Of a stretch of 64,000 bases of DNA, positions 42,549 through 62,790 are shown in pieces (within the stretch, counting starts at the first letter, position 1; every line of letters begins with the position of its first letter). Where the stretch lies: contig NZ_FNIQ01000002.1 in NCBI RefSeq assembly GCF_900104025.1, forward strand, positions 1-64,000, read 5' to 3'. The translations under genes and the position numbers were made by a program. Under the pieces are notes generated by a model. It was not told the origin of the DNA, ran no database searches, and worked only from the letters and a program-made list of their open reading frames with translations. The stretch is from Geodermatophilus sp. DSM 45219 (GTDB lineage Bacteria > Actinomycetota > Actinomycetes > Mycobacteriales > Geodermatophilaceae).

Positions 42549-42866
42549 CCTCGTTGGTACCGCAGGTGCAAGACGTGTGACGTTTGGTGATCTTGATGTG
42601 ACCGGACCGGGATCGGCCGATGGCGCAGTTGGATGCGGATGGTGCGCAGCACGAACTGCGTCGGCTCGGACCTTGACTGCGCCGACCTCGAGGTCGACGG
42701 CGCGGAATCGAGCAGGACCGTGGGCTGACCAGCCCGTACACCGCCCAAGGGTCGTTCATAACGCGTTGATCACTTTGCGTTGCACGTAGTCCCAGCCACG
42801 CCGCTGGTCCAGCACCAGCTGCTTCACTCCTCGCGCTCGTTTCGTCGCGGACAGTGTGGAGTGGTC

Positions 42867-45800
42867 GTGGCTGGTCGGGGTCGGATTGCGCGGTGGTGGC
42901 GTCGGGCCGGTCGGCCGCAGACGGTGGCGCTGGCCGCCGCGCTGATGACGGCCACGGTCTTGGCCTCTGATCTCCCGGCCATCGCCGCGCCGCCGCCGGT
43001 CCCCGTGGCGGACGAGTCGCGGAGCGGAGACGAAGCAGGCCTGACGGCTCCGGATGCGGTTTCCGCCCGCACGATCGCCCGTTCCACCGGTCAGGCGGTC
43101 GAGGTCGTCGGTGAGCGCACCGAGACCTCCTCCACGTGGGTGCGGCCCGACGGTACGTTCACCCGCAGTGAGTTCGCCGCCCCCGTGTGGGTGCAGACGG
43201 GGGCGGACGCGACGGAACCGGGGTCATGGGCACCGGTCGACCTCCGCCTCGAGGTCGGCGCGGACGGCGCCGTCCGTCCCATGTCGCACCCGCGGGACGT
43301 GCGGCTCAGTGGCGGCGGCGAGGGCGAGGTCGCCCGCATGGACCTGCCCGGCGGCTCGGTGGCCTTCCGAGGAGTCGACCGGTTGCCGAAGCCCCGTCTG
43401 GAGGGTTCCCGGGCGGTCTACGCAGACGTTCGTCCGGGCGTCGACCTGGTCGTGGAGGTCAACCGCACCGGCTTCGAACAGTTCTGGGTGATCCGTGACC
43501 GGCCGGGCCGCGGTCGGGTGCCCCTGGAACTGGACCTGCCCATGGAGCTGGTGACGGAGGGCGTGGACACCGCCGTCCGGACGGACGGTCAGGTCGACGT
43601 GGTCGATGCGGCAGGTACGACGCTCGCGACGCTGCCGAAGCCCAACATGTGGGACGCCTCGGTCGACGCCGACCTTGCCCGACCGATCGCCGCACCCGCT
43701 CCCGGCCTCGCCGGTATGGCCGCCGGCCAGCCGCCGGCGGTTCCTGCCGCCGTCGAGGGCGGCGTACAGCCGGTGCCGGCCTCCCACGAGCCCTACATCG
43801 CTGAGCAGGCGAGTCCCGGGCACGCGCCGGTGACGACCACGCAACCCTCGTCGGCCACGGGTTCGCCATCCGGTGACGAGCCGTCGGTGCGGACGGGCCC
43901 GGCGACGCCCGGCACGGGCCGGCCGGAGGCGCGGCCGGTCGACGTGCGGGTCGACAAGCCAGGGCGTGGGCGGACGGCGTTCACCTTCAGCCCGGGGCGG
44001 GCGTTCCTGGACTCGCCGTCGACCCGGTATCCCGTCGTGGTCGACCCCTACGTGAACGCTTGGACGCACTTCGACACCTACGTGCAGTCGAACGTCGTCA
44101 ACACCGACTACTCCGGCTCCGGCGAGCTGCGCCTCGGCACCTATGACGGTGGGGCCACCGTGGCGCGCAGCTTCCTGACGATGAACCTCGACGGGCTGCA
44201 GGACAAGACGATCATCACCAGCCGCCTGGCTCTCTGGAACTGGCACTCGTGGTCGTGCGAGCGCGCCGATTGGGAGGTCTGGTGGACCAATGAGGCGTCG
44301 CCGGCCACCCGCTGGGGCTCACAGCCCGGCTGGCACCGGCGGATCGGCGTCTCTGCTGACACCCAGGGATACGGCAGCGGGGCCTGCGGGGACGGCTGGG
44401 TGTGGGCCGACATCACCGAGGCGACCCAGTGGCAGTCCAGCCGTGGAGTCACCCGGTGGGGCCTGGGCCTGAAGGCGCTCAACGAAGGTGACAACAGGAG
44501 CTGGAAGAAGTTCGACTCGGCCAACGCCGGCATCCCGCCGCGTCTGGACGTCACCTACCGCAACCGCCCCCACACAGCCGGCGACCTGCAGATCTCCCAC
44601 TCCGGCTTCGACGCTGCGGGACGGTTGGTCAGCAACCCCCGTCCCGAGCTGAGCTTCGTCGCTGCTCACCCCGACGGTGCCGACGTCGATGCGGTCTTCT
44701 ACGTGTACGAGGGAAGCCGCCTGGCCTTCCAGCAGGCGGTGCGCGTCCGATCCGGGGAACGAGCGCGGCTCGTGGTGCCGGACGGTGTGCTCAAGCAGGG
44801 GCGCGCCTACAAGTTCCGCGCCGCCGTCTACGACGACTACACGTTCGGCCCGGACGGCTGGAACCGCATCACACCGGCCCACGCGCCGAACAAGGCGCTC
44901 GACGTCCCCGGCTGTGGCGTCGAGGCAGGCCTGCAGATGCACCAGTGGGACTGGAACGGCGGGAACTGCCAGCGGTTCGGCATCCTCATGCCGCGCGACG
45001 GTGCCGGTCACCACGCCTTCCTGGCGCGCAGCGGTGCCGGTGCGCTGGACCAGGCCGGCTGCGCCACCACCATGGGAACGCGCATCATCACCTGGTACCC
45101 ACACCTCGCGAGCTGTCAGCAGTTCTTCCTGCAACCCACGCGCGGGGACGCCGCAGGCCAGTACCGGCTGCTGGCCCGCAACTCCGGGCTCGCCATGGAC
45201 ATCAACGGCGCGAGCGTGGACAACGGTGCGATCGTCCATCTCTGGGGCGTCAACGGGTGCCTGTGCCAGGAGTTCCGCATCGACCCCGCCGGCGACAACG
45301 GCTGGGAGTCGCGGATCGAGTTCCGCACCGACTTCACCGCCCCGGGGGCTCCCTTCGTCTCCTCGTCCAACTACCCGAACAACGAGACCTGGAACGGTGG
45401 CGCCGGCACCGCCGGCTCTTTCACCGTGCGCCCGGCCACCGGCAACACCGACGTCGCCGGTTACGAGTGGGGGCTGGACAGCCCCGCGGCGGCGACCAAC
45501 TTCGTCGCTGGCGGTGGTCAGGTCACCTTCAGCGTGCCGATCCCGACGAACGGCCGGCACACCCTGCAGGTGGTGGCCCGCGACCATGCGGGCAACCGCT
45601 CCCCACCGGTGAGCTACAGCTTCAACGTCGGGCGCGGCGGGATCACCCAGCCGGCCGTCGGGCACCACGCGGTCCGCCGGGTGCGGGTCACCGTGGACGG
45701 CGACCCGTCCTGGACCCAGGTACGGCTCGACTACCGCCGCGGCGAGGGCGCCACCGAGTTCCCCGTGCCCATCGGCCACCTCACCCGGCCGGACGGCACC

Positions 45801-48800
45801 GGGTTGACCAGTACCACCGGGTTCCTGCCCCTGGCCGACGTCCGCGAGGCGGCGATCTGGGACGCCGGCACGACCTTGGGCTTCGTCGGTGGGCCGGTGC
45901 AGCTGCGGGCCACCCTCCGCGACGCCTCCGGCGTCACGTACCAGACGCCGTGGATCGGCTTCACCCTCGACCGGGACGCCGACGGCGCCGCCACCACCGA
46001 CATCGGTCCCGGAACGGTCAACGTGCTCACCGGCGACCACGTGCTGTCCAGTACCGACGCCGAGGAGCCCGGGCTGTCGGTCAGCCGCACCACGTCCTCT
46101 CGGGACCCCGACAGCGGCCTGCAGCCCCAGCGCGAGCAGTTCACCGCCAACCAGGCCGCGATCGGCACGGACACCGCAGGCTTCGCACCCAACTCCGTGA
46201 CGGTCACCCGCGTCGCCGACCGGGGCCACTCGCCGGGCGGTGCGCTCCAGGTCGTCCCGGCCGGCACCGGTAGCACCTCGGACACCTTCGTGGCGGTGGG
46301 GGAGGGCAGCGGGCTGCAGGCCGGCCTGCAGCCGGGCAGGCGGTACCGCGTCTCCGGGTGGGTCTTCGTCCCCGGGGCCACGGGGCTGTCACCGGCCGAT
46401 CCCGACGACGGGCTGCGCATCGTGGTCGCCGCCCGCCGCGCCGACGGGACCTGGACCCACGCCCGGTCGGACAAGGCCGGCACGACCGACGCCTGGCAGC
46501 AGCTGTCGGTCGACGTCACCCTGCCTGCCGACGCCACGGCCGCCGGGGTGCGGCTGTACTCCGGCTTCGCCACCGGCAGCAACGCGCCGGTCCTCTTCGA
46601 CGACCTCTCGCTGCGCCAGCTGTGGGCCCCCTTCGGCGAGGCCTGGAACACCGGCGTCACCGCCGAGGCCGCCGGCACCGACTACACCCGCATCTCCCTC
46701 GTCGAGACCGAGGTGGCCCAGGTCGACCTGGCCGGCGGCGGGCGAATCTGGTTCACCAAGGGCCCGAACGGCTGGTGGCCCGAGCTCGGCGCCGAGGGCC
46801 TCACGCTGACCGTCAACGCCGCCGAGGACTCCTTCACCCTCACCGAGCTCGACGGCACCGCCACGGTCTTCCGCCGCACCAGCCCGGGTGTCGGTGACTG
46901 GCTGGTCGACGCCACGACCCCGCCGGTGGCCTCGGCCACGACCCGGTACGTGTACGAGACGACGCCGCAGGGCGTCACCCGGATCACCCGCGCGGTCGCG
47001 CCGACCCAGCCGGGCATCGACGCCTCGGCCTGCGCCACGGCGGCCACCCCGCCGGTGGGCTGCGTGGTCCTCGAGTACGACTACGCGCCCGCGAACACCG
47101 CACGTCCCTCCGGACTGGGCGACTTCCCCGAGCAGGTCCGGCAGGTGCGGATGTGGACCACCGACCCGGCCACCCGGACGCCGTCGGCCGAGGCGGTCGC
47201 CCGCTACCTGTACGACAACAGCGGCCGTCTCCGAGAGGTCTGGGACCCGCGCATCGAGGCCACGGGCGCGCCGGCACTGAAGACCAGGTACGAGTACGAC
47301 GCCCAGGGGCGGGTCACCAAGCTGACGCCGCCCGGCGAGCTGCCCTGGTCGTTCACCTACGGCCAGGCCGGCGACACCGTCACCGGCAGCGGCGACTGGA
47401 TCGACCCGAACCCCGGCCGGCTGCTCGCGGTGTCGCGGCCCAGCCTGGTGGAGGGCACCCGGGACCAGGTCGGCCCCGACATCCGCACGAGCGTCGTCTA
47501 CGACGTCCCGACCACGCGGGCTGCCGGCGGCCCCTACGACCTGGACGCCCCCGCCATCGCGACCTGGGGGCAGACGGAGGCGCCCACGGACGCCACCGCC
47601 GTCTTCGGTCCCGAGACCGTGCCCAGCGTGTCGACGGCGACCGCCAGCAGCCCCGGCTCCGGTGGCTATTCAGCGGCGACCGTCCACTACCTCAACGCGG
47701 CCGGTCGGGCGGTCAACACCGCCTCCCCGGCCGGACCGGACGCACCGGTCGAGGGTTTCATCGACACCGCCGCCTACGACCGGTTCGGCAACGTCGTCCG
47801 CACGCTCGAGGCCACCAACCGGCTGCTCGCCCTGCGCCGGCTCCCGGACGCGGCGCTCACCCTCGGTCGTCTCGGTCTCGCCGGAGTCAGCAGCGCCGGC
47901 GCGGCCTCGGCGCTGAGCTCGGTGACGACCTACAGCCCCGACGGTCTCGACGTCCTCACCAGCACCGGGCCCACGCAGCTGTTGGCGATCGGCAACGACG
48001 TGGCCAGCACCCAGCCCGTCCGTGACTACACCGAGTACCGCTACGACGAGGGCAAGCCCGACGGGCTGACCTACCACCTGGTCACCACCGAGACCGAAGG
48101 GGTGAAGAAGGCCGACGGCACGCTGGCCGACGTCGACGTCACCACCAACGGCTACAGCCCGCCGACCGTCTGCCCCGGCAGCGGCAGCGGCTGGCGCCAG
48201 GGCGGACAGCCCACCACGGTCACCGTCGACGCCGCCGGCAAGAAGATCACCACGACGGTCTGCTACGACGACCAGGGCCGGGCGGTGCAGTCCCGCCGTG
48301 CCGGTGCCGGCGGCACGGACGCCGGCACGGTCCGGACGGTCTTCTGGACCGCGGGCGCCAATCCCGACGACACCGAGTGCGGCGGCCGACCCGAGTGGGC
48401 CGGGCTGCCCTGCGTGACCCGCGCGGCCGGCCCGGCCACCGGCGCGGACACCACCCGGATGGCCGCCGAGCTGCCGGTCAAGCGGATCCGGGCCTACTCC
48501 CGCTACGGCAGCGCCGAGCGGGTGGAGGAGTCCGCGACCGGCCCGGTGGCCGGTGCCACGGCCACGCAGACCCGCACCACGGTCACCACCTACGACCGGG
48601 CCGACCGGGTCACCTCCGTGGCCATCGCCACCGCCGGGCCCGGGATGGTGCCGGTCGCAACCACCCGGCACACCTACGACCCGGTCAGCGGTGACGTCAC
48701 CCGCATCGCCAAGATCGACGCCAGCGGTGCCGAGAGCGCGGCCGTGGTGAAGACCTTCGACGCGCTCGGGCGGATGACCCGGTACGACGACGGCGCCGGC

Positions 48801-51182
48801 GCGTGGACCGCGACGACGTTCGACCGGTTCGACAAGCCGACCGTGGTGACCGACAGCCTGGGGAGCACCCAGCGGTTCAGCTACGACCGCAGCGTCGAGC
48901 CGCGGGGCTTCCTCACCTCGGTCGACGACTCGGTCGCCGGCACGCTGAGCGCCGCCTACGGGCCCGACGGCCAGGTGGTGCGGCAGAGCCTGCCGGGGCA
49001 GGTCACCTTGCGGATCGGCTACGACCCGGCCGGCATCCCCGTGTCGCGCGACTACACGGCGCCCGACGGGCCGGATGCGGACACCACCGAGGACAGGCTC
49101 GCCTTCTCGGCGGTGGTCGAGAACGGCGCCGGCCAGTACATCAGCCACGAGACGGCGGCCAGCGCCAAGACCTACGCCTACGACGTGCTGGGCCGGCTCA
49201 CCGACGTCCGCGACCTGACCCGAACCAGCACCGGGGTCTGCAGCTGGCGGAAGTACACCTGGAACGACCGGGCCGGCCGCCAGTCGCTGTCGGCCACGCG
49301 GACGGCGGGGCAGACCTGCACCGACCCGGCCACCACGGCCGGTGCGGCCACCACCGGCTACGGCTACGACTCCGCCGACCGGCTGCAGGCCACCACGGGT
49401 GCCTCTGCCGGCACCTACGCCTACGACCCGCTGGGGCGGATCACCACCGCTCCGGTCGCGAGCAACCCGGGTGCGACGGTCACCAACAGCTACTACGCCA
49501 ACGACCTGGTGGCCGGCCAGGAGATCAGCGGCGTCGCCCGCACCCGCTGGACGCTGGACGCGCTGCAGCGGTTCTCCACCTACACCGCCGAGGCGTGGGC
49601 CAACGGTGCGTGGGCGAACGCGGTCACCAAGACCAACCACTACGACTCCGACGGCGACAGCCCGGCCTGGATCGCCGAGGACGCCACCCTGCCCGACGAG
49701 GTCACCCGGTACATCGACGGGCTCGACGGCCAGCTGGCGGTGCAGACCGGCAAGACCGGCGACCGCGTACTGCAGCTGATCGACCTGCACGGCGACGTCA
49801 TGGCCACCCTCCCCATCCGGGACGGCGCCGCCAGCGGGGACTGGGCCGGGCTGCGGCACCAGGCGGCCGACGAGTTCGGCAACCCGACCGACCTGGCCAC
49901 CGGCGCGACCACCGCCTCCACCGGCGCACCGCCCGGCAAGGGCAACCGGTACGGCTGGCTCGGCGGCGCCCAGCGCTCCAGCGAGGCCCTCGCCGGGGTC
50001 CTGCTCATGGGCGTTCGCCTCTACGACCCCGCCACCGGACGGTTCTGGTCACAGGACCCCGAACCCGGGGGCAACGCCACCCCGTACGACTACTGCGGCG
50101 CCGACCCGGTCAACTGCACCGATCTCGACGGCCGCTGGGGCTGGCTGAAGAAGTCGCTGAAGAAGGTCGCCCGGTTCGCCGAGGTCGCCTCCTACATCCC
50201 CGGGCCCATCGGCTCCGCCGCCTCAGCGATCTCGGCCGGCGCCTACGCCGCTACCGGCAACCGCCGCAAGGCCATCGAGATGGGCATCAGCGCGGCCGCG
50301 GCGATGGTGCCCGGCGGTCGAGCAGCCGTGCGGCTGGGAGCCGCAGCACTTCGCTCGGCAGGCAAGGTATCGGCCAAGGCCGGACGACCACTAGCCCGGG
50401 CATCCAAGCCGTGCAACAGCTTCACCCCGGGAACCGGCGTCCTCATGGCCGACGGCACCACGCTGCCCATCAGCCAGATCCAGGTCGGGGATCTCGTCGC
50501 CGCCCGCGACCCGATCACCGGCGAGACGTCGGCTCAACCGGTGCTCGACGTCATCGTCGGCGTAGGCGACAAGCACCTCATCGGCGTCACGACCTCCCGG
50601 GCTCCGCCTACTGCGCTCGGGTCGGAAGAGGTTGGCGCCGCGGCCGGCGCCGACTCCTGGACGGCCACCGCCGGCCATCCCATCTGGGTCGAAGGTGAGG
50701 GCTGGACGGACGCCGAGGACCTTGAGGTCGGCGACCGGACCGTCGGCGCAACTGGCGAACTTCGCATCGTCGTGGCGCTCGTCGATCACGGTTGGCGCGC
50801 TGACCAGACGGTCTTCAACCTCAGCATTGCGAACGTTCACACGTACGTCGTTGGTGATGTCGGCGACGGAACCGTGGTGCACAATAAGAGTTGTAGGCAA
50901 GGTGGTGTCTATGCTCTGACGACCGCGAGTGGAAAGGTGGTCCGAACAGGTCGTACGAATGACCTCGCGCGGCGGGAATCCGAACACGGTCGCATGTATC
51001 AAGGCCTCAACTTCGTGCCGCTGGCGAGGACAAACAATCGCTTCGCTCAGCGAGGACTGGAGCAGATGGTCCACAACCGATACCGGCCGATCCTCAACCG
51101 TGTAAGCCCCGTGTCCTCAAAGAATCCGGCTCGGCACCTGTACGCGGCAGCCGCCAAGCGCCACCTACGTGGGGGTAGATGA
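42867..51182 (+). CDS. secreted RHS/YD-repeat polymorphic toxin with HINT and GIY-YIG-like nuclease domains
   Basis: 2771 residues counted from the GTG at 42867 (GGAG 7 bases upstream; GTG at 42861 or TTG at 42780 are alternatives). Order: signal peptide (1-41, twin Arg then V-A-L-A-A-A-L-M-T-A-T-V-L-A, ending A-I-A-A); DNRLRE-like domain (about 400-563); ricin-type beta-trefoil with Q-W/Q-F motifs (about 675-815); jelly-roll carbohydrate-binding-like domain (about 1110-1252); YD repeats (about 1470-2355); RHS core from R-Y-G-W-L-G to D-L-D-G (2361-2422). Then come a hydrophobic linker and a HINT domain from Cys2516 to V-V-H-N (Asn2673). The last 98 residues are the toxin: G-V-Y (2680-2682), V-R-T-G-R-T-N-D-L-A-R-R with Arg2702/2703, His2707 and Glu2732, the GIY-YIG layout. 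The RHS shell should encase the toxin and HINT release it. The tail is visibly less GC-rich than the body, typical of toxin swapping. A small immunity-like gene overlaps its stop. Confidence 0.9.
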   Translation: MAGRGRIARWWRRAGRPQTVALAAALMTATVLASDLPAIAAPPPVPVADESRSGDEAGLTAPDAVSARTIARSTGQAVEVVGERTETSSTWVRPDGTFTRSEFAAPVWVQTGADATEPGSWAPVDLRLEVGADGAVRPMSHPRDVRLSGGGEGEVARMDLPGGSVAFRGVDRLPKPRLEGSRAVYADVRPGVDLVVEVNRTGFEQFWVIRDRPGRGRVPLELDLPMELVTEGVDTAVRTDGQVDVVDAAGTTLATLPKPNMWDASVDADLARPIAAPAPGLAGMAAGQPPAVPAAVEGGVQPVPASHEPYIAEQASPGHAPVTTTQPSSATGSPSGDEPSVRTGPATPGTGRPEARPVDVRVDKPGRGRTAFTFSPGRAFLDSPSTRYPVVVDPYVNAWTHFDTYVQSNVVNTDYSGSGELRLGTYDGGATVARSFLTMNLDGLQDKTIITSRLALWNWHSWSCERADWEVWWTNEASPATRWGSQPGWHRRIGVSADTQGYGSGACGDGWVWADITEATQWQSSRGVTRWGLGLKALNEGDNRSWKKFDSANAGIPPRLDVTYRNRPHTAGDLQISHSGFDAAGRLVSNPRPELSFVAAHPDGADVDAVFYVYEGSRLAFQQAVRVRSGERARLVVPDGVLKQGRAYKFRAAVYDDYTFGPDGWNRITPAHAPNKALDVPGCGVEAGLQMHQWDWNGGNCQRFGILMPRDGAGHHAFLARSGAGALDQAGCATTMGTRIITWYPHLASCQQFFLQPTRGDAAGQYRLLARNSGLAMDINGASVDNGAIVHLWGVNGCLCQEFRIDPAGDNGWESRIEFRTDFTAPGAPFVSSSNYPNNETWNGGAGTAGSFTVRPATGNTDVAGYEWGLDSPAAATNFVAGGGQVTFSVPIPTNGRHTLQVVARDHAGNRSPPVSYSFNVGRGGITQPAVGHHAVRRVRVTVDGDPSWTQVRLDYRRGEGATEFPVPIGHLTRPDGTGLTSTTGFLPLADVREAAIWDAGTTLGFVGGPVQLRATLRDASGVTYQTPWIGFTLDRDADGAATTDIGPGTVNVLTGDHVLSSTDAEEPGLSVSRTTSSRDPDSGLQPQREQFTANQAAIGTDTAGFAPNSVTVTRVADRGHSPGGALQVVPAGTGSTSDTFVAVGEGSGLQAGLQPGRRYRVSGWVFVPGATGLSPADPDDGLRIVVAARRADGTWTHARSDKAGTTDAWQQLSVDVTLPADATAAGVRLYSGFATGSNAPVLFDDLSLRQLWAPFGEAWNTGVTAEAAGTDYTRISLVETEVAQVDLAGGGRIWFTKGPNGWWPELGAEGLTLTVNAAEDSFTLTELDGTATVFRRTSPGVGDWLVDATTPPVASATTRYVYETTPQGVTRITRAVAPTQPGIDASACATAATPPVGCVVLEYDYAPANTARPSGLGDFPEQVRQVRMWTTDPATRTPSAEAVARYLYDNSGRLREVWDPRIEATGAPALKTRYEYDAQGRVTKLTPPGELPWSFTYGQAGDTVTGSGDWIDPNPGRLLAVSRPSLVEGTRDQVGPDIRTSVVYDVPTTRAAGGPYDLDAPAIATWGQTEAPTDATAVFGPETVPSVSTATASSPGSGGYSAATVHYLNAAGRAVNTASPAGPDAPVEGFIDTAAYDRFGNVVRTLEATNRLLALRRLPDAALTLGRLGLAGVSSAGAASALSSVTTYSPDGLDVLTSTGPTQLLAIGNDVASTQPVRDYTEYRYDEGKPDGLTYHLVTTETEGVKKADGTLADVDVTTNGYSPPTVCPGSGSGWRQGGQPTTVTVDAAGKKITTTVCYDDQGRAVQSRRAGAGGTDAGTVRTVFWTAGANPDDTECGGRPEWAGLPCVTRAAGPATGADTTRMAAELPVKRIRAYSRYGSAERVEESATGPVAGATATQTRTTVTTYDRADRVTSVAIATAGPGMVPVATTRHTYDPVSGDVTRIAKIDASGAESAAVVKTFDALGRMTRYDDGAGAWTATTFDRFDKPTVVTDSLGSTQRFSYDRSVEPRGFLTSVDDSVAGTLSAAYGPDGQVVRQSLPGQVTLRIGYDPAGIPVSRDYTAPDGPDADTTEDRLAFSAVVENGAGQYISHETAASAKTYAYDVLGRLTDVRDLTRTSTGVCSWRKYTWNDRAGRQSLSATRTAGQTCTDPATTAGAATTGYGYDSADRLQATTGASAGTYAYDPLGRITTAPVASNPGATVTNSYYANDLVAGQEISGVARTRWTLDALQRFSTYTAEAWANGAWANAVTKTNHYDSDGDSPAWIAEDATLPDEVTRYIDGLDGQLAVQTGKTGDRVLQLIDLHGDVMATLPIRDGAASGDWAGLRHQAADEFGNPTDLATGATTASTGAPPGKGNRYGWLGGAQRSSEALAGVLLMGVRLYDPATGRFWSQDPEPGGNATPYDYCGADPVNCTDLDGRWGWLKKSLKKVARFAEVASYIPGPIGSAASAISAGAYAATGNRRKAIEMGISAAAAMVPGGRAAVRLGAAALRSAGKVSAKAGRPLARASKPCNSFTPGTGVLMADGTTLPISQIQVGDLVAARDPITGETSAQPVLDVIVGVGDKHLIGVTTSRAPPTALGSEEVGAAAGADSWTATAGHPIWVEGEGWTDAEDLEVGDRTVGATGELRIVVALVDHGWRADQTVFNLSIANVHTYVVGDVGDGTVVHNKSCRQGGVYALTTASGKVVRTGRTNDLARRESEHGRMYQGLNFVPLARTNNRFAQRGLEQMVHNRYRPILNRVSPVSSKNPARHLYAAAAKRHLRGGR

Positions 51183-51640
51183 TGGCTCGATCGATACCAG
51201 AGGGGACAGTCTTCATAATCCCACCGCGGATGGCGGCACCGGCTCTCGGGGTAGTGGCACGGCGCCAACCACGGGGCACCTGCGTAGCCGCCTACATATT
51301 CGCGAGGGTATCGATGGATCACGCTGATGTGCTGCGCGCGCCTCTCCCCGACCCGACCGAAGCCTCGTACAGGGTGCGCTTTTCGGATCATGCCATACGC
51401 ACGGGTTCGTGGAAGGACCTCGGAGTCCATCCGCGTTTTGAACGCGCCCGATGGCCGTTCCCCGCGATTCGCCACCGTGACTATTTCACCGGCGAGTGCC
51501 AAATCCTGCAACTGGATGATCGGAATCCGCTCGTGGTGACTTCATCCCAGGCGGTCGACTGTGGTGAAGTGGGGCATCTGCCGCCTGACGGGATCATGGA
51601 TCCCTACATCTTCATGGAGACGGTGCTTCCAGAGCTCTAG
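51179..51640 (+). CDS. putative immunity protein for the RHS nuclease toxin
   Basis: A 153-residue (or 152 from the ATG at 51182) cytosolic protein directly behind the toxin, its start overlapping the toxin stop (ATGATGA). GGGGG precedes. The opening I-P-E-G-T-V-F-I-I-P-P-R and a central F-E-R-A-R-W-P-F-P-A with a final acidic I-M-D-P-Y-I-F-M-E-T resemble the Imm26 type of immunity proteins, but this match is only by eye. Base composition is lower in GC than the housekeeping genes, like the toxin tail. Small size, overlap and context make immunity the best guess. Confidence 0.72.
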   Translation: MMARSIPEGTVFIIPPRMAAPALGVVARRQPRGTCVAAYIFARVSMDHADVLRAPLPDPTEASYRVRFSDHAIRTGSWKDLGVHPRFERARWPFPAIRHRDYFTGECQILQLDDRNPLVVTSSQAVDCGEVGHLPPDGIMDPYIFMETVLPEL

Positions 51641-52392: not shown

Positions 52393-53145
52393 CTACTCCC
52401 GTATCGAGGCGGTGACCTGGTGGAACGTCGGCAACCAGGCATGGTCCACATGGGCCGGTGCGAAGAGGACGAGGAGAACCGGAGAGGGCTCCTCGATCAA
52501 GTACAGGTGCAGGTGCAGCACCTCGTCCGAGGCCAGTTGCAGACTCCCGTCGAAGGTGCTGGTCTCGCGGCCGGCGATCTCGGTCCGGTCACCCGCTGGG
52601 GAGATCGTGCTGGCGGGCAAGGACGCCTGGATCTGTTCCCGTTGCTGCACGGGGTCTCTCGCGTTCAGCAGGGGCCTCTCGGCGACGTACAGGCCGACCG
52701 CCGACTCGGGGTCCCGCTCAGCCGCGCCGGCCGCCTCCTGCCGTGCGCTCGGCTCGCCGAGGAAGACCCCGGACCAGTCGATCGGGGCCAGCACGGCCTG
52801 ACCCTCCGTCCCCGGTCGGCGCCATGGTTCCCAGTCGCGCGGGACGTCCGCCGAGTAGCCGCCGACCCCCAGCTGCCGCGTGACCCGGTCGGTCTCGCGC
52901 TCCCACGGTCGCCAGAGCACGAGGAGCACAACGGCCGCCGCCAGCAGGATCGCCCCGACGACGGGCCACAGCGGCCACCGGCGTCGCTGCCGGGCCGACG
53001 CCGGCTCGCCGGGCGCCGAGGAGGGGGCGGACGGCGGGCTGTCCGGAGCGGCGTCCTCGCCGGGTGGGGTCGAGGTCTCCCGGCGGGGCGCACTCCTCTT
53101 GCCGAAGGGGTACACCTCCGCAGACGAGCCCTCGTCGGCGCTCAC
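52393..53145 (-). CDS. membrane-anchored extracytoplasmic protein of unknown function
   Basis: A 250-residue protein. Residues 1-55 are hydrophilic and Pro/Ser-rich (cytoplasmic), residues 57-80 form one membrane segment (P-L-W-P-V-V-G-A-I-L-L-A-A-A-V-V-L-L-V), and the rest is outside. The outer domain starts Y-S-A-D-V-P-R-D-W-E-P-W and ends F-H-Q-V-T-A-S-I-R-E. This outline resembles the PsbP/LpqN-like fold, but that is inference. It is the last gene of a minus-strand trio with the genes at 53335 and 54765. Confidence 0.7.
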   Translation of the reverse strand: MSADEGSSAEVYPFGKRSAPRRETSTPPGEDAAPDSPPSAPSSAPGEPASARQRRRWPLWPVVGAILLAAAVVLLVLWRPWERETDRVTRQLGVGGYSADVPRDWEPWRRPGTEGQAVLAPIDWSGVFLGEPSARQEAAGAAERDPESAVGLYVAERPLLNARDPVQQREQIQASLPASTISPAGDRTEIAGRETSTFDGSLQLASDEVLHLHLYLIEEPSPVLLVLFAPAHVDHAWLPTFHQVTASIRE

Positions 53146-53334
53146 GGCCGCAGCCGTCTGCGCGACGGGTCACCGCACGACGACTGCCCCTGCTCCGCCG
53201 ATCCCGGTCCACCGCGCACCGACCGCACACCGGGCGCTGCGGGGTGGCGTCGCCGGGTCGCCGTCGTCGGGCGCGGAGCGACGTCCACGTCTGCCCACAG
53301 GGGTGGGGAGTACCGTCCCCGGAGGCAGGGGGGC

Positions 53335-54636
53335 TCACCGGTCAGCATCTCGCTGGCCGGCGGACGCGTCGCCTGCCGTGGGCGCTGCTCCACCCGTCGG
53401 GCCGGCCGTCCCGACGACGCCGGTAGGGCGGCGACGTCGTCCGATCAGCAGCCCCGCGGTCAGTGCCCCGAGCACGAGCAGCACCACCACGCCCCACATC
53501 CACCACGCGATGCCCCCGTCGTCGGGCACGAGATCGTCGACGGCGTCCTCCCGGGCGGCGGCGCGGTCCTGGGCGAACGTGAGGTAGTCGCGGGCGAGAG
53601 CCGAGTCGAAGTACGTCGTCGCCGTTCGCAGCCGCTCGGCCGCTGCCGCGTACTCCCCCCGGTTGATCTGTGCGAGCCCGTCCGCGAAAGCGATGTCGAA
53701 GCCGGATCGCGTGGCCGTGACGCCGGCGCCGACCAGCGCCGCCTGGATGCTGGCGGCCCCGACCGCGGAGACGACGAAGGACGGGTCGCAGTCGGCCAGG
53801 GCGAGCACGGCGCCGGTGGCCCGGTCGATGACGGGTCCGCCGTTGAGCCCACCGGCGAGCGAGCTCGTCAGGGTCTGGCCCCCCGTCAGCCTGCTGCCGT
53901 CCAGACGCACGGGTTCGACCGCGGGCCGCAGGGTGCGTGTGGTCGGAGCCGACTGCGACACCTCCCAGTCGAGTCCGGCGACCGCCGCATCGTCGACGGG
54001 CTCCTGGGTCGGGGACAGGCTGGCGGTCGGCAGGCCTCCGGCGCCGATGCGCAGGAGCGCCACGTCGGTCGGGCCTGAGGGCTGGTTGACGAGGGTGGCC
54101 GGCACGGGCTCCTCCTGGTCCGCGCTGAGCAACACGACCTCGTAGCGTTCGTGGGGGACGACGATGCAGTGCTCGACCCGCCGGTAGCAGTGCTGGAGGT
54201 GCTCGTCGATCGCGGGGTCCGTCGCGTGGGTGGGACCGGTCGCGTCGTTCCCGTCCACCAGCTGCGCGCCGATCTGCTCCACGAAGAGTCGGTTGGCGGC
54301 CGGGACGGTCACCGTGTCCAGGTCCTCCCGGAGCAGCCGGTACAGCGTCGCCACGACGCCGTCCCCGGTCACCAGCACCCCGGTCGCCTCGGCTTGCGGC
54401 ACCTCGTAGGTCCCTTGGTGGATGACCACGTCGCCGGTGGAGTGGTTGACGTGGGCGATCGTCACGTCCGCGATCACGTTGATGCGCACGAGCGCGGCCT
54501 GCGTGCCCACCAGCTCGGTGTCCACCGTGGCCGGCTCACCCCCGGCGGGACCCGCCTGAGCCGCCGGCATCAGGGCGAGGAAGGTGACGAGGACCGCGGC
54601 GGCGGAGCCGATGCGGCGGATGAGCGTCGTTGACAT
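53335..54636 (-). CDS. secreted trypsin-like protein without catalytic His/Ser, C-terminal membrane anchor
   Basis: A 433-residue protein. A signal peptide (1-29, ending A-A-Q-A) precedes a chymotrypsin-fold-like domain. The Asp strand T-D-V-A-L-L-R-I is intact, but the His position reads V-V-A-T-L-Y-R and the Ser loop reads G-L-N-G-G-P-V-I-D where proteases have G-x-S-G-G-P. A helical stretch (about 310-365) with TPR-like A-Q-I-N-R-G-E-Y-A-A-A-A-E-R follows, then a membrane segment (about 377-400) and a basic tail. It is probably a binding or scaffold protein, not an enzyme. ATG at 54636 has GGGGG 8 bases upstream. Confidence 0.75.
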   Translation of the reverse strand: MSTTLIRRIGSAAAVLVTFLALMPAAQAGPAGGEPATVDTELVGTQAALVRINVIADVTIAHVNHSTGDVVIHQGTYEVPQAEATGVLVTGDGVVATLYRLLREDLDTVTVPAANRLFVEQIGAQLVDGNDATGPTHATDPAIDEHLQHCYRRVEHCIVVPHERYEVVLLSADQEEPVPATLVNQPSGPTDVALLRIGAGGLPTASLSPTQEPVDDAAVAGLDWEVSQSAPTTRTLRPAVEPVRLDGSRLTGGQTLTSSLAGGLNGGPVIDRATGAVLALADCDPSFVVSAVGAASIQAALVGAGVTATRSGFDIAFADGLAQINRGEYAAAAERLRTATTYFDSALARDYLTFAQDRAAAREDAVDDLVPDDGGIAWWMWGVVVLLVLGALTAGLLIGRRRRPTGVVGTAGPTGGAAPTAGDASAGQRDADR

Positions 54637-58567: not shown

Positions 58568-59200
58568 TCATCCACCCCCGTGGGGCGTCCGGACGTCGAC
58601 GACGGCGACGTTGACCTCGGTGGTGACCAGCCCGGTCTGCTGCGCGATGTGCGCGGCGATGCGCTCGCGCACCACCGCCGCGACGGCGTGGATCGGGACG
58701 CCGTGGTCGACGGCGATCTGGACGTCGACCACCACGCGGGAACCGGCCGTGCCCACCGCGGTGGCCGCCTCTCCGTCCGGCCCGGCGACTCGTGCGGGGT
58801 CGGCCGCGGTGTCCGGCGGGGTGGCCACCCGGCCCCCGCCGAGGGCGAGGGACACGTGCGGTACCGACTCGGCGGCCAGGCGGGCGACGGCTCCGACGAC
58901 GCGCGCGGCGATGCGGGTCTGGCCGGCGGGGTCGTGGAGCACGGCGGACCAGTTGGCGCGGGACAGTTCGCGGACCTGCGCCATCACCGACTGGAGCAGG
59001 TCGGCCGGGGCGCGGACCCGCTCTGCTGCCAGCTCGCGGACGGGGGTCCAGAGCTCCTCGAACTCGGCCAGCGCCGCGCGGCAGTGGGGGCAGCTCCGCT
59101 GGTGGGCCGGGTCGCGCGGCGCGGTGCCCTCGGTGACCTGGGTGAGCAGGTCGGCCGGGACGGCGCCGCAGGGCAGGCGGTCGGCGGGCACGGCGGTCAC
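58568..59200 (-). CDS. zinc-finger (anti-sigma-like) and Asp23 domain fusion protein
   Basis: A 210-residue protein. Residues 25-45 carry H-Q-R-S-C-P-H-C, the H-x3-C-x2-C motif of zinc-binding anti-sigma factors. Residues 50-95 are helical (E-E-L-W-T-P-V-R-E-L-A-A-E-R-V-R-A-P), also as in anti-sigma domains. Residues 95-205 are Asp23/Gls24-like, ending V-V-V-D-V-Q-I-A-V-D-H-G-V-P-I and T-E-V-N-V-A-V-V-D-V. GTG at 59200 overlaps the stop of the sigma gene, with GGAG 5 bases before it. It probably controls the co-encoded sigma factor. Confidence 0.82.
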   Translation of the reverse strand: MTAVPADRLPCGAVPADLLTQVTEGTAPRDPAHQRSCPHCRAALAEFEELWTPVRELAAERVRAPADLLQSVMAQVRELSRANWSAVLHDPAGQTRIAARVVGAVARLAAESVPHVSLALGGGRVATPPDTAADPARVAGPDGEAATAVGTAGSRVVVDVQIAVDHGVPIHAVAAVVRERIAAHIAQQTGLVTTEVNVAVVDVRTPHGGG

Positions 59201-59772
59201 CTCCACTCCTGCAGGACGTCGGCCAGTGCCCGCCGGGCGCGGTGGGCCCGGACCTTCGCGGCGCTCTCGCTGATCCCCAGGATGCGCCCGGTCTCGGCGT
59301 GTGTGTACCCACCGAACGTGGTGAGCACGAGCGGCGCCCGCTGGTCGAGGGGAAGCGCCCGCAGGGCGTGCCGGACGGCCTCGCGGCGGTGCGCGGCGAC
59401 GGCGAGCGTCTCCGCAGCCGGCGTGCGGGGCATGTCTGCTGCCGTGTCGTCCTCCGGGAGGGGGCCGACGGGGCGGCGGGCGCGGTGGGCGTTGTGGCAG
59501 CGGTTGATCAGGATCCGGGTCGCCCAGGTGGAGAACCCGGCCTCGCCGCGGAAACCCGGCAGGTGGCGCCACGCCTGGATCAGGGTCTCCTGGAGGACGT
59601 CGCGGGCGTCGTCGCGATCGCCGGTCATGCGCAGGGCGACCGCGTACAGGCGGTCCTGGTGGCTGCGGACGAGAGCGGCGAACGCCTGCTCGTCACCTGC
59701 CCGGGCCAGGTCGACCCAGCGGGCCTCCAGCGGATCGGCCGGCCTGTCCGCGTCGACGGTCGACCCGCTCAC
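59197..59772 (-). CDS. ECF-type RNA polymerase sigma factor
   Basis: A 191-residue sigma-70 family factor. Region 2 is A-F-A-A-L-V-R-S-H-Q-D-R-L-Y-A-V-A-L-R-M, D-A-R-D-V-L-Q-E-T-L-I-Q-A-W and F-S-T-W-A-T-R-I-L-I-N-R. Region 4 is L-P-L-D-Q-R-A-P-L-V-L, A-E-T-G-R-I-L-G-I-S-E-S-A-A-K-V-R-A-H-R-A-R. It is translationally coupled to the zinc-finger/Asp23 gene and divergent from the main Asp23 operon, which it may activate. Confidence 0.92.
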   Translation of the reverse strand: MSGSTVDADRPADPLEARWVDLARAGDEQAFAALVRSHQDRLYAVALRMTGDRDDARDVLQETLIQAWRHLPGFRGEAGFSTWATRILINRCHNAHRARRPVGPLPEDDTAADMPRTPAAETLAVAAHRREAVRHALRALPLDQRAPLVLTTFGGYTHAETGRILGISESAAKVRAHRARRALADVLQEWR

Positions 59773-59933: not shown

Positions 59934-60395
59934 ATGACCCAGTCCACCAGCAGCAGCACCTCCACCTCGTCGAGCGCGATCGCGCAGGCGACCCCGTCGG
60001 CCCTGCAGAGCACGCAGGGGACGACGACCATCGCCAACGACGTCGTCCAGAAGATCGCCGGCCTGGCCGCGCGCGAGGTCGCCGGCGTCTACTCCCTCGG
60101 CGGCGGCGCGGCCCGCGCGCTCGGTGCACTGCGCGAGCGCATCCCCGGCGCCTCCCAGGCGGTCGGCCAGGGCGTGACGGTCGAGGTGGGCGAGCGGCAG
60201 GCCGCGGTGGACCTGGACCTGGTCACCGAGTACGGCGTCCCGATCGCCGACCTGTCGCGGTCGGTGCGGCGCAACGTCATCGCCTCGGTCGAGGGGATGA
60301 CCGGCCTGCAGGTCACCGAGGTGAACATCTCGGTCAACGACATCCACCTGCCCACCGACGACGAGGGTCCGCAGGAGCCTGCGCGCGTCCGGTGA
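59934..60395 (+). CDS. Asp23/Gls24 family envelope stress protein
   Basis: A 153-residue Asp23 protein. A Ser/Thr-rich head (1-30) precedes the domain: T-T-I-A-N-D-V-V-Q-K-I-A-G-L-A-A-R-E-V-A-G-V-Y, G-V-T-V-E-V-G-E-R-Q-A-A-V-D-L-D-L-V-T-E-Y-G, and L-Q-V-T-E-V-N-I-S-V-N-D-I-H-L. Family members coat the membrane through AmaP, present at 62218. ATG at 59934 has AAGAGG 8 bases upstream. It is the first gene of the plus-strand operon. Confidence 0.92.
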   Translation: MTQSTSSSTSTSSSAIAQATPSALQSTQGTTTIANDVVQKIAGLAAREVAGVYSLGGGAARALGALRERIPGASQAVGQGVTVEVGERQAAVDLDLVTEYGVPIADLSRSVRRNVIASVEGMTGLQVTEVNISVNDIHLPTDDEGPQEPARVR

Positions 60396-60730
60396 GCACT
60401 CCGCAGAGCGTCGCGGGAGCCGAGGTGCTCGTCGAGGCCGGGACGGCGGACGCGATCGTCGCGGCCGTCACGGCCTGCCCGGCCGTGGCGTCCCTGCACG
60501 GCGGCGGTCTGCGCCGCACCGCGACCTACCTCCCGGGCCGCCTGGTCGAGGGTGTGCACGTCGACGACGACCGGGTCCGGGTCTCCGTCGTCGCCGTGCA
60601 GGGGGTACCCGTGGCGCAGGTGGCGGAGCAGGTCCGCGCCGCCGTCGCGCCCCTCGTCCCCGGCCGGGCGGTCGACGTCCACGTGGCCGACGTGCAGGTG
60701 ACCCACCCGCCGGCTCCGCCGCCGGCCTGA
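60392..60730 (+). CDS. short Asp23-like protein
   Basis: A 112-residue protein, a reduced Asp23-like domain. The alternating strands are L-V-E-G-V-H-V-D-D-D-R-V-R-V-S-V-V-A-V-Q-G-V-P and A-V-D-V-H-V-A-D-V-Q-V-T. It overlaps the preceding Asp23 gene by 4 bases, so both are probably made together and may associate. Confidence 0.75.
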   Translation: MSTPQSVAGAEVLVEAGTADAIVAAVTACPAVASLHGGGLRRTATYLPGRLVEGVHVDDDRVRVSVVAVQGVPVAQVAEQVRAAVAPLVPGRAVDVHVADVQVTHPPAPPPA

Positions 60731-60749
60731 CCGCTCCTCGGAGCCCGAG

Positions 60750-60986
60750 ATGCCGTCGTCCCCCGATCCCGCCGAGCGCCGCCGGCGGCGTGCGCTCCTG
60801 CGGGCCACCCATCCCGACCTCGGTGGGGACCCCGAGGAGTTCATCCGCGTCCTCGCCGCGCTCGAGGCCGGGGGGACGGCGGCACCCGGTCCCGGACCCG
60901 AGGTGCGATTCGTGCGCCGGCCCCGGGGAGTCGCCCGGGTCACCGCGTGGTGGCGGCGCCGACGGCGCCCCCCGCGCGTCGTCTGA
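60750..60986 (+). CDS. tiny protein with HPD-containing J-like motif
   Basis: A 78-residue basic protein. Residues 15-42 read L-L-R-A-T-H-P-D-L-G-G-D-P-E-E-F-I-R-V-L, matching the H-P-D-x-G-G-D loop and start of helix III of J-domains. The preceding helix is short and Arg-rich, and the C-terminus is a tryptophan/arginine-rich tail that could bind membrane or nucleic acid. Whether it stimulates an Hsp70 is unknown. It sits inside the Asp23 operon. Confidence 0.68.
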   Translation: MPSSPDPAERRRRRALLRATHPDLGGDPEEFIRVLAALEAGGTAAPGPGPEVRFVRRPRGVARVTAWWRRRRRPPRVV

Positions 60987-61030
60987 GGTCCGTCCCGCTC
61001 CCGCCCGTCCCATCCGTACGGAGGAACTCC

Positions 61031-61216
61031 ATGCCCCCCACCGTCGTCGGTCTCTTCACCGGCCTCCTGCTCGGCCTGGCCTGGGTGATCGGCGGTCTCG
61101 ACGCCTTCGTCGGCACCGCCGTGCTCGGTGTCATCGGCTTCGTCATCGGCAAGGTCGTCGCCGGCCAGCTCGACCTCACCCCGTACCTGGGCGGCGGCGG
61201 CCGCGGCTCCCGGTGA
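61031..61216 (+). CDS. small two-pass membrane protein, DUF2273-like
   Basis: A 61-residue protein with two membrane helices (G-L-F-T-G-L-L-L-G-L-A-W-V-I-G and A-V-L-G-V-I-G-F-V-I-G-K-V-V-A-G) and a Gly-rich end. Small DUF2273-type proteins accompany Asp23 genes in Gram-positive bacteria and probably help anchor the Asp23 layer. GAGG lies 8 bases before the ATG. Confidence 0.8.
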   Translation: MPPTVVGLFTGLLLGLAWVIGGLDAFVGTAVLGVIGFVIGKVVAGQLDLTPYLGGGGRGSR

Positions 61217-61665
61217 GCACCGTCGCCTCCGCGGTCGTCCCCGACGACGCGCCGGTCGGCACCCCGCTCGCCGCCGAGACCGGCAGCGCCCACCCCGAGC
61301 TGGGTGACCCGGCCGAGCGGGGCAGCCTCACCGTCGCCGACCGGGTCGTCGAACGCGTCGCCGGCCACGCCGTGACCCGGGTCGAGGGCGCCAGCGCCGC
61401 CCCGCGCCGCGTGCTGGGAGTCAGCGTCGGCGGCAGCCGGCCCGACCGTGAGGCTTCCGTCGACGCCCGCGTCGACGGCTCGACCGCCACCGTCGAGGCC
61501 ACCGTGGCCGTCGCGTGGCCTGCATCGGTCCGCGAGGTGACGGCACGGCTGCGGGAGCAGGTGCGCGACGACGTCGGCCGCATCACCGGCGTGCGCGTGG
61601 CCCACGTCGACGTCGACGTCGTCAGCCTGACGGCGCCGGCGGCCCGTCCGCGCCGGGTCCAGTGA
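61213..61665 (+). CDS. Asp23/Gls24 family protein
   Basis: A 150-residue Asp23-type protein with an acidic Ala/Pro-rich head, then L-T-V-A-D-R-V-V-E-R-V-A-G-H-A-V-T-R-V-E-G, A-S-V-D-A-R-V-D-G-S-T-A-T-V-E-A-T-V-A-V and V-R-V-A-H-V-D-V-D-V-V-S-L. It is the third plus-strand Asp23-type gene here and overlaps the DUF2273-like gene by 4 bases. Confidence 0.87.
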   Translation: MSTVASAVVPDDAPVGTPLAAETGSAHPELGDPAERGSLTVADRVVERVAGHAVTRVEGASAAPRRVLGVSVGGSRPDREASVDARVDGSTATVEATVAVAWPASVREVTARLREQVRDDVGRITGVRVAHVDVDVVSLTAPAARPRRVQ

Positions 61666-61690
61666 CCGCATCCACGAGGAAGGAGCAGAC

Positions 61691-62221
61691 GTGCACGTGG
61701 TGAACCGGGTCCTCGCGACCCTGCTGGCGCTCGCGCTGCTGCTCGGCGGGCTGCTGGCCGTCGTCGAGATCGTCCTGGCCCAGCTGGGCCGCCCGTCCTG
61801 GCTCGCGCCCCACGAGCGGTGGAGCAGCTGGCTGGCGGGCCAGACCTTCCTCAGCGGGGTGGTCCGCGCCGTCCTGATCGGCCTGGCGGTCCTCGGGCTC
61901 GTGCTGCTCGTGCTCGCGCTCCGGCGTGGGAGGCCCGGATCGGTGCAGCTGCCGTCCCGGACCGAGGGCGTCCGCGTGAGCGCTTCCCGCCGCGGCATCG
62001 AGCGCTCGCTGTCGACGGCCGCACGGCGGGCCGACGGCGTCCGGTCGGCCCGCGCCAGGGCCGGACGGCGTGCCGTGCGGGTGAAGGCCGTGTCGGCCCT
62101 GCGCTCGACCGGTGACCTGCAGCAGCCGGTCACGGCGGCCGTCACCGCCCGACTCGAGCAGCTCGGCCTCGGCGGGGTCCTGCGGCCCCGCGTCACCGTC
62201 ACGAAGGAGTCCTCCCGGTGA
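61691..62221 (+). CDS. DUF6286-type membrane protein
   Basis: A 176-residue protein with two membrane segments (about 6-28 and 55-78) followed by a basic cytoplasmic domain (V-R-V-S-A-S-R-R-G-I-E-R-S-L and R-A-V-R-V-K-A-V-S-A-L). Proteins of this outline are annotated DUF6286 in actinobacterial Asp23 clusters. Start GTG at 61691 with GAGGAAGGAG upstream. It overlaps amaP. Confidence 0.78.
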   Translation: MHVVNRVLATLLALALLLGGLLAVVEIVLAQLGRPSWLAPHERWSSWLAGQTFLSGVVRAVLIGLAVLGLVLLVLALRRGRPGSVQLPSRTEGVRVSASRRGIERSLSTAARRADGVRSARARAGRRAVRVKAVSALRSTGDLQQPVTAAVTARLEQLGLGGVLRPRVTVTKESSR

Positions 62222-62790
62222 GCGCACGCGTGAACGGCGTCAACCGCACGGTCCTGGCGCTCCTCGGCCTGGTGCTGCTCGCGGCCGGAGGGCTGGGCCT
62301 GGCGTACTCCTTCGGCGCCTTCGGTACCGGGCAGCGCCCGGTCCTGCCCCAGCCGGTGCGCGACTACGCCCGCGAGCAGGGCTGGTTCTGGTGGGCGGTG
62401 GCCGGCGTGTGCCTCCTGCTGGCGCTGGTGGGTCTGTGGTGGCTGCTGGCCCAGCTGCGGACCGACCGCGTCAGCCGCCTCGACCTCACCACCGACGACC
62501 GGGACGGCCTGACCACCGTGCACGCCGGGGCCGTGACCGACGCGGTCGAGACCGAGGTCGAGGGACTCCGCGGCGTGGCCGGCGCGTCGGCGTCCCTGAT
62601 CGAGCGACGCGGGCGGCGCCTGACCCTGTCCGTCGACCTGGCGGAGTACGCCGACATCGCCGAGGTCCGGCAGGCCATCGAGGACCGCGTCGTCGCCCAC
62701 GCGCGGCAGGCCCTCGACGACCCGGACCTGCTGGTGGACGTCGAGCTGCGCCCCGGACGCACCCGGTCGGCCGGGCACGGCGTGCGCTGA
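62218..62790 (+). CDS. amaP: alkaline shock response membrane anchor protein AmaP
   Basis: A 190-residue protein with two N-terminal membrane helices (about 11-31, T-V-L-A-L-L-G-L-V-L-L-A-A-G-G, and 57-78, W-W-A-V-A-G-V-C-L-L-L-A-L-V-G). The cytoplasmic Asp23-binding domain includes L-I-E-R-R-G-R-R-L-T-L-S-V-D-L-A. In Staphylococcus AmaP tethers Asp23 to the membrane. It is the last gene of the operon. Confidence 0.87.
   Translation: MSARVNGVNRTVLALLGLVLLAAGGLGLAYSFGAFGTGQRPVLPQPVRDYAREQGWFWWAVAGVCLLLALVGLWWLLAQLRTDRVSRLDLTTDDRDGLTTVHAGAVTDAVETEVEGLRGVAGASASLIERRGRRLTLSVDLAEYADIAEVRQAIEDRVVAHARQALDDPDLLVDVELRPGRTRSAGHGVR

Follow-up and report, generated by a model that had tools for sequence, protein, structure and literature searches.

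The gene at 53335–54636, in a window of 64,000 nucleotides of DNA from Geodermatophilus sp. DSM 45219, encodes a secreted and membrane-anchored protein that we term pseudo-HtrA: its ectodomain is predicted to have the fold of an HtrA protease, and the loss of its catalysis is well supported. In relatives, the pseudo-HtrA gene adjoins the gene of a membrane-spanning signalling kinase, and the protein therefore probably serves a receptor as its sensing half. We lean towards the view that it acts outside the cytoplasm as the sensor, or co-receptor, in a receptor module that some actinomycetes encode in two genes, and that in the window lineage the output of this module was lost and the ectodomains were kept. 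The main functional evidence is the strict pairing with a kinase-type partner, together with the parallel absence of the kinase domain and of a zinc ribbon.

Layout of the gene and its product

The open reading frame of pseudo-HtrA starts with the ATG at 54636 on the minus strand. Its GC content by codon position (0.755/0.531/0.912), an intact copy in Geodermatophilus obscurus and a dN/dS of 0.21–0.42 indicate that this is a real gene and not a chance frame; within its own genome it was matched once. The product had been described in the original prediction as secreted with a membrane anchor, and both a hydrophobic N-terminus running to AQA-G and a strong transmembrane segment close to the C-terminus are consistent with this (Table 1). 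The pair Cys150/Cys157 is likely to form a disulfide.

Table 1. Features of the pseudo-HtrA gene and of the genes on either side of it in the window
Feature	Position	Strand	Description or basis
Partner gene, 250 aa	52393..53145	−	Cytoplasmic stub, TM (residues 59–77), PsbP/LpqN-fold ectodomain; kinase domain absent
Partner ectodomain, PsbP-like fold	52396..52914	−	AlphaFold2 pLDDT 91.2
Pseudo-HtrA gene, 433 aa	53335..54636	−	Signal peptide, dead trypsin-fold ectodomain, TPR-like helices, TM, short cytoplasmic tail
Signal peptide, residues 1–28	54553..54636	−	Hydrophobic core, AQA-G end; sequence and hydropathy
HtrA/trypsin-fold domain, residues 35–306	53719..54534	−	AlphaFold2 model residues 1–272 aligned to HtrA structures
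TPR-like helices, residues 312–361	53554..53703	−	Helices in AlphaFold2 model; weak TPR_2 match in orthologue
Transmembrane helix, residues 380–398	53443..53499	−	Mean hydropathy 2.46
Segment Cys150 to Cys157	54166..54189	−	Cys pair in 24/24 members
Arg100 codon, catalytic His position	54337..54339	−	Motif GVVATLYR; His in 0/24 members
Asp191 codon, catalytic Asp position, retained	54064..54066	−	Motif PTDVALLRI; Asp in 8/24 members (register-dependent)
Asn265 codon, catalytic Ser position	53842..53844	−	Motif GGLNGGP; Ser in 2/24 members
Upstream gene, 750 aa	54765..57017	−	Four TM-like N-terminal peaks, then large domain

Predicted fold of the ectodomain

Residues 35–361 were modelled with AlphaFold2 from a 24-row alignment (mean pLDDT 90.9, pTM 0.87), and the best structural neighbours of the model were HtrA proteases. 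The best VIA-align match was H. pylori HtrA (Z 18.9, rmsd 2.8, 170 residues), with DegS and HtrA1 at Z about 18 and MamO (5hma) in the same list of neighbours at Z 17.5; Foldseek returned DegS (E 1.7e-9). A Z of at least 8 was reached by 991 of the 994 chains aligned to the model, which places it in the double β-barrel trypsin fold. Three helices follow the barrel in the model, so that helices and a transmembrane segment come after the protease domain, where HtrA has PDZ.

For the window protein, Pfam gave no family at E ≤ 10, and hence no PDZ match, and a phmmer search against the PDB gave no match. The relationship to trypsin is thus invisible from this protein alone and rests on the orthologues and the model. 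Trypsin_2 reached 47.9 bits in the orthologue L054, where 27.6 is the cut-off; it was below the cut-off or unmatched in the other four orthologues scanned by Pfam. The TPR_2 match, in the orthologue L058, had an E of 0.2 and was below the Pfam cut-off.

Catalytic positions across the family

The motifs quoted in the original prediction are present in the protein: the Asp strand is kept, with Arg at the His position and Asn at the Ser position. Arg100 was assigned to the His position by the T-x-x-H spacing of HtrA and trypsin. Where S1/S1C proteases require a His-Asp-Ser triad, the window protein therefore has Arg100, Asp191 and Asn265.

Genome searches gave relatives with 40–89% identity in the window organism's own family and 28% further away. 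The closest, from G. obscurus (Geodermatophilaceae; genome G009, locus L002), is 86–89% identical and has an intact reading frame. A profile built from eight pseudo-HtrA sequences (A2) added 16 members from a class-wide sample, giving a family of 24 that includes the window protein. Within the window's own genus the distribution is patchy, with the family found in five of 26 genomes.

Judged from the alignment, an intact triad occurs in none of the 24 members. The absence of His from its catalytic position is independent of the alignment register; the count for Asp depends on it, with rows from one taxonomic family (f31) often having an Asp one residue before the aligned column. A His elsewhere might have taken over, and was sought: no His column is invariant among the 24 rows, the best reaching 17, so there is no conserved replacement. 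The loss of catalysis is thus well supported by the sequences, both in the window protein and across its family, and this part of the earlier interpretation stands. The binding role that it had drawn from that loss is a fair inference for the dead domain.

Weaker matches to the family profiles include relatives with active-type His and Ser loops (L047, L048 and L121–L129). When the 24 members were placed in a tree with 14 active-looking rows, all 24 lay as one clade on one side of a branch with support 100/99, which was seen in all 200 bootstrap trees counted and at which long branches meet. 'Active' here means that His and Ser loops are seen in the sequence, not that activity is; the loops were recognized by simple patterns in some of these outgroup rows and by visual reading in the others, and two of the 14 (L034 and L121) are one gene.

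Pairing with a kinase-type partner gene

A gene of one partner family (C0) lies directly downstream of pseudo-HtrA on the same strand at all 24 loci, which comprise the window, 14 neighbourhoods read from predicted genes or, for L056, from open reading frames, and nine further loci; at one of the 24 (L070) the contig ends within the partner gene. The kinase motifs HRDxKxxN, DFG and APE are found in 22 of the 24 partners, and Pfam placed Pkinase above its cut-off in both of the partners scanned (E 1.4e-38 and 2.1e-40), with no PASTA domain in either. These kinase-bearing partners have a kinase domain followed by a linker, one transmembrane helix and an ectodomain, which spans 171–182 residues where the partner is complete. 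In all 22 such pairs the intergenic gap is −25 to +32 bp. The gap is 171 bp in G. obscurus and 189 bp in the window, so that co-transcription is not assured at these two reduced loci.

The ectodomain of the window partner was modelled with AlphaFold2 from 23 rows, the cut partner being left out, and the model has the PsbP/LpqN/Mog1 fold. Foldseek matched it to PsbP (E 3.1e-7), and VIA-align to a cyanobacterial PsbP (Z 13.8), LpqN (Z 10.2) and MTC28 (Z 9.9).

A profile of the partner ectodomain and one of pseudo-HtrA matched the same 17 of 394 actinomycete genomes in a class-wide sample; the loci described here had supplied the sequences for both profiles, and only the best few candidates per genome were scored. 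For pseudo-HtrA, the 17 genomes were matched at E ≤ 4.2e-110 and the next best match was at 1.3e-27. The chance figure for identical genome sets, 3.8e-30, overstates the case because 15 of the 17 genomes, which represent three families, belong to a single one (f31) and are not independent. In total, the pair is known from four families. The flanking genes vary across families, and the pair therefore behaves as a unit.

Reduction of both genes in the window lineage

A C-terminal zinc ribbon (CxxCG...CxxCG) is present in 22 of the 24 pseudo-HtrA members and absent from those of the window and G. obscurus (L002). The partners at these two loci, of 250 and 259 aa, respectively, retain only a short stub, the transmembrane helix and the ectodomain, the kinase domain having gone. 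The zinc ribbon and the kinase domain are thus absent in parallel, and since the two genomes are sisters, the parallel loss counts as a single evolutionary event.

Remnants of the missing parts were sought at the window locus. A kinase from another locus (L051) aligned at 52393–53145 by residues 327–555 only, that is, by its transmembrane and ectodomain part, where the open frame is 258 codons; its 12 other matches lay elsewhere in the genome. A six-frame search of 53101–53600 for the zinc ribbon gave three matches with Cys spacing, none of them like the double motif, and these were taken as chance.

Between the window and G. obscurus, two-sequence estimates of dN/dS (NG86/YN00) were 0.42/0.21 for pseudo-HtrA (0.28 by NG86 for its ectodomain), 0.42/0.24 for the partner and 0.50/0.20 for the 750-aa protein encoded upstream. 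From these values, both outer parts appear to have been kept after both cytoplasmic parts went, and both remaining genes, membrane helices included, appear to be under purifying selection.

Genes around the pair

Among the loci seen, the upstream membrane-protein gene adjoins the pair only in the window genome and in G. obscurus, where the copy beside the pair is 77% identical. Other relatives of the 750-aa protein were found at two more places in G. obscurus and in a further genome (G010), all away from the pair, and no neighbour was consistent among the three loci seen. Pfam gave only sub-threshold matches (DUF525, DotU) for the two neighbours of pseudo-HtrA.

At two other loci, in G008 and G025, the kinase gene is followed, after ∼0.8 kb, by the gene of a membrane-anchored trypsin-like paralogue whose His and Ser loops are intact and whose tail resembles a zinc ribbon (L049, 12160–13404 (+), with Trypsin_2 at 65.8 bits; L050, 11645–13063 (+)). 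In G082, an FHA-domain ABC transporter-like gene (L056, 11663–13930 (+)), recognized from its sequence, begins ∼10 bp after the kinase gene, and its product might recognize phosphothreonines made by the kinase. Both kinds of neighbour are consistent with a signalling locus, without proving one.

Elsewhere in the window, features recognized by their sequence include a very large RHS-repeat protein (42780–51182 (+), a frame of 2800 aa). It carries a Hint/intein-like segment close to the C-terminus, its terminal domain is similar to GIY-YIG nucleases, and it is likely a polymorphic toxin acting between bacteria; the small ORF directly after it (51179–51640 (+)) could be its immunity gene. A gene pair at 58568–59772 (−) resembles an ECF sigma factor and a zinc-type anti-sigma factor, and a run of small genes at 59934–62790 (+) resembles an Asp23/alkaline-shock envelope cluster.

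Proposed function and alternatives

In the mechanism that we propose, pseudo-HtrA would be the ligand-binding co-receptor and the kinase with the PsbP-like ectodomain the transmitter. The former substrate cleft would bind an extracellular ligand, which may be a peptide, an unfolded protein or a wall fragment; the two ectodomains would meet beside the membrane and set the activity of the kinase, and the cytoplasmic zinc ribbon might dock on the kinase or on its substrate. In the window lineage the module would have been rewired, with the ectodomains and membrane helices kept and a third membrane-protein gene upstream. The parts left there could form a complex for binding at the surface or act as a decoy, or they could still sense and pass their output through the upstream membrane protein.

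An envelope scaffold or holdase chaperone would account for part of the same data. Chaperone functions are known for HtrA proteins, DegS and HtrA are among the closest folds, and TPR-like helices follow the domain; the dead domain would then bind misfolded proteins, and its neighbour would be co-regulated without direct contact. The constant adjacency to one kinase family, with an identical distribution among genomes, fits a dedicated partner better, and we regard the chaperone reading as unlikely. We give rather less credence to the idea that the window pair is a relic, two shortened genes drifting without function since the kinase domain and zinc ribbon were lost. It would explain why both cytoplasmic output domains are missing, why the intergenic gap is enlarged and why so few genomes of the genus hold the family. 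However, both frames are intact in two species, with dN/dS at 0.21–0.42 for pseudo-HtrA and 0.24–0.42 for the partner, and AlphaFold2 gave confident folds for both window proteins, though aided by the alignments of relatives.

The presence of MamO among the structural neighbours also raises a metal-binding role, since metal binding replaced catalysis in that protein, where His116 and Asp149 of the predicted triad remain and a di-His motif binds the metal (PMC4794232). With no His column of the pseudo-HtrA family above 17 of 24 rows, a family-wide di-His site is unlikely, and we consider this role very doubtful. That the protein remains a protease, by means of a different Ser and His or of an unusual mechanism, is harder still to believe: the window protein retains Asp191 and two members have the Ser, but there is no invariant His among the 24 rows and none at the catalytic position.

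The co-receptor reading leads to a broader proposal, which we put forward tentatively and at somewhat less than even odds. The dead HtrA domain may define an undescribed receptor class of actinomycetes as the dedicated co-receptor of a Ser/Thr kinase with a PsbP-type ectodomain. In one Geodermatophilus lineage the output side, kinase and zinc ribbon together, may have been lost as a unit and the remainder redeployed at the surface, in a complex that lacks a kinase and includes a new membrane protein. Beyond the PASTA type, how bacterial receptor kinases perceive external signals is still largely an open question. Through its strict pairing with a single kinase family, this pseudoprotease offers a concrete case, open to testing, of a dead enzyme that serves as a sensor. 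The window lineage adds a natural experiment, having retained the sensor side after loss of the kinase.

Comparison with known systems

The ectodomain of pseudo-HtrA has the fold of HtrA/DegS-type proteases (S1C, Trypsin_2). DegS is anchored in the membrane outside the cytoplasm, as is the window protein. Unlike these proteases, however, the window protein lacks the His and Ser, carries its anchor at the C-terminus, has helices after the domain and gives no PDZ match in Pfam. The closest relatives found are the actinomycete trypsin-like membrane proteins with active loops, which have a similar layout and share the signal peptide, trypsin domain and transmembrane helix, and several of which also have a helical part or a C-terminal zinc ribbon. 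They differ in keeping the His and Ser loops, and the partner gene was adjacent in none of the four of their neighbourhoods that were examined (L072–L075); at L074, a weak match to the kinase part lies two genes away.

Inactive prokaryotic homologues of serine proteases are already known, 42 having been counted among 966 prokaryotic proteases in PMC2605481, where the word 'kinase' does not occur in the main text. MamO, also known, is a bacterial trypsin-fold magnetosome protein repurposed after its catalysis was lost (PMC4794232). The pseudo-HtrA family differs from MamO in lacking the catalytic His in all 24 members and in being paired with a kinase gene. Searches of open-licence PMC papers gave no description of the pairing seen here.

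The partner ectodomain shares its fold with PsbP/LpqN/Mog1-like proteins, but it is joined to a transmembrane helix and usually to a kinase, and has 12–14% identity to the PsbP and LpqN chains. In 22 of the 24 partners, a cytoplasmic kinase domain, one transmembrane helix and an ectodomain give the arrangement of PknB-type receptor Ser/Thr kinases. The partners depart from PknB in that this ectodomain is PsbP/LpqN-like and not PASTA, and the window copy departs further in having no kinase domain.
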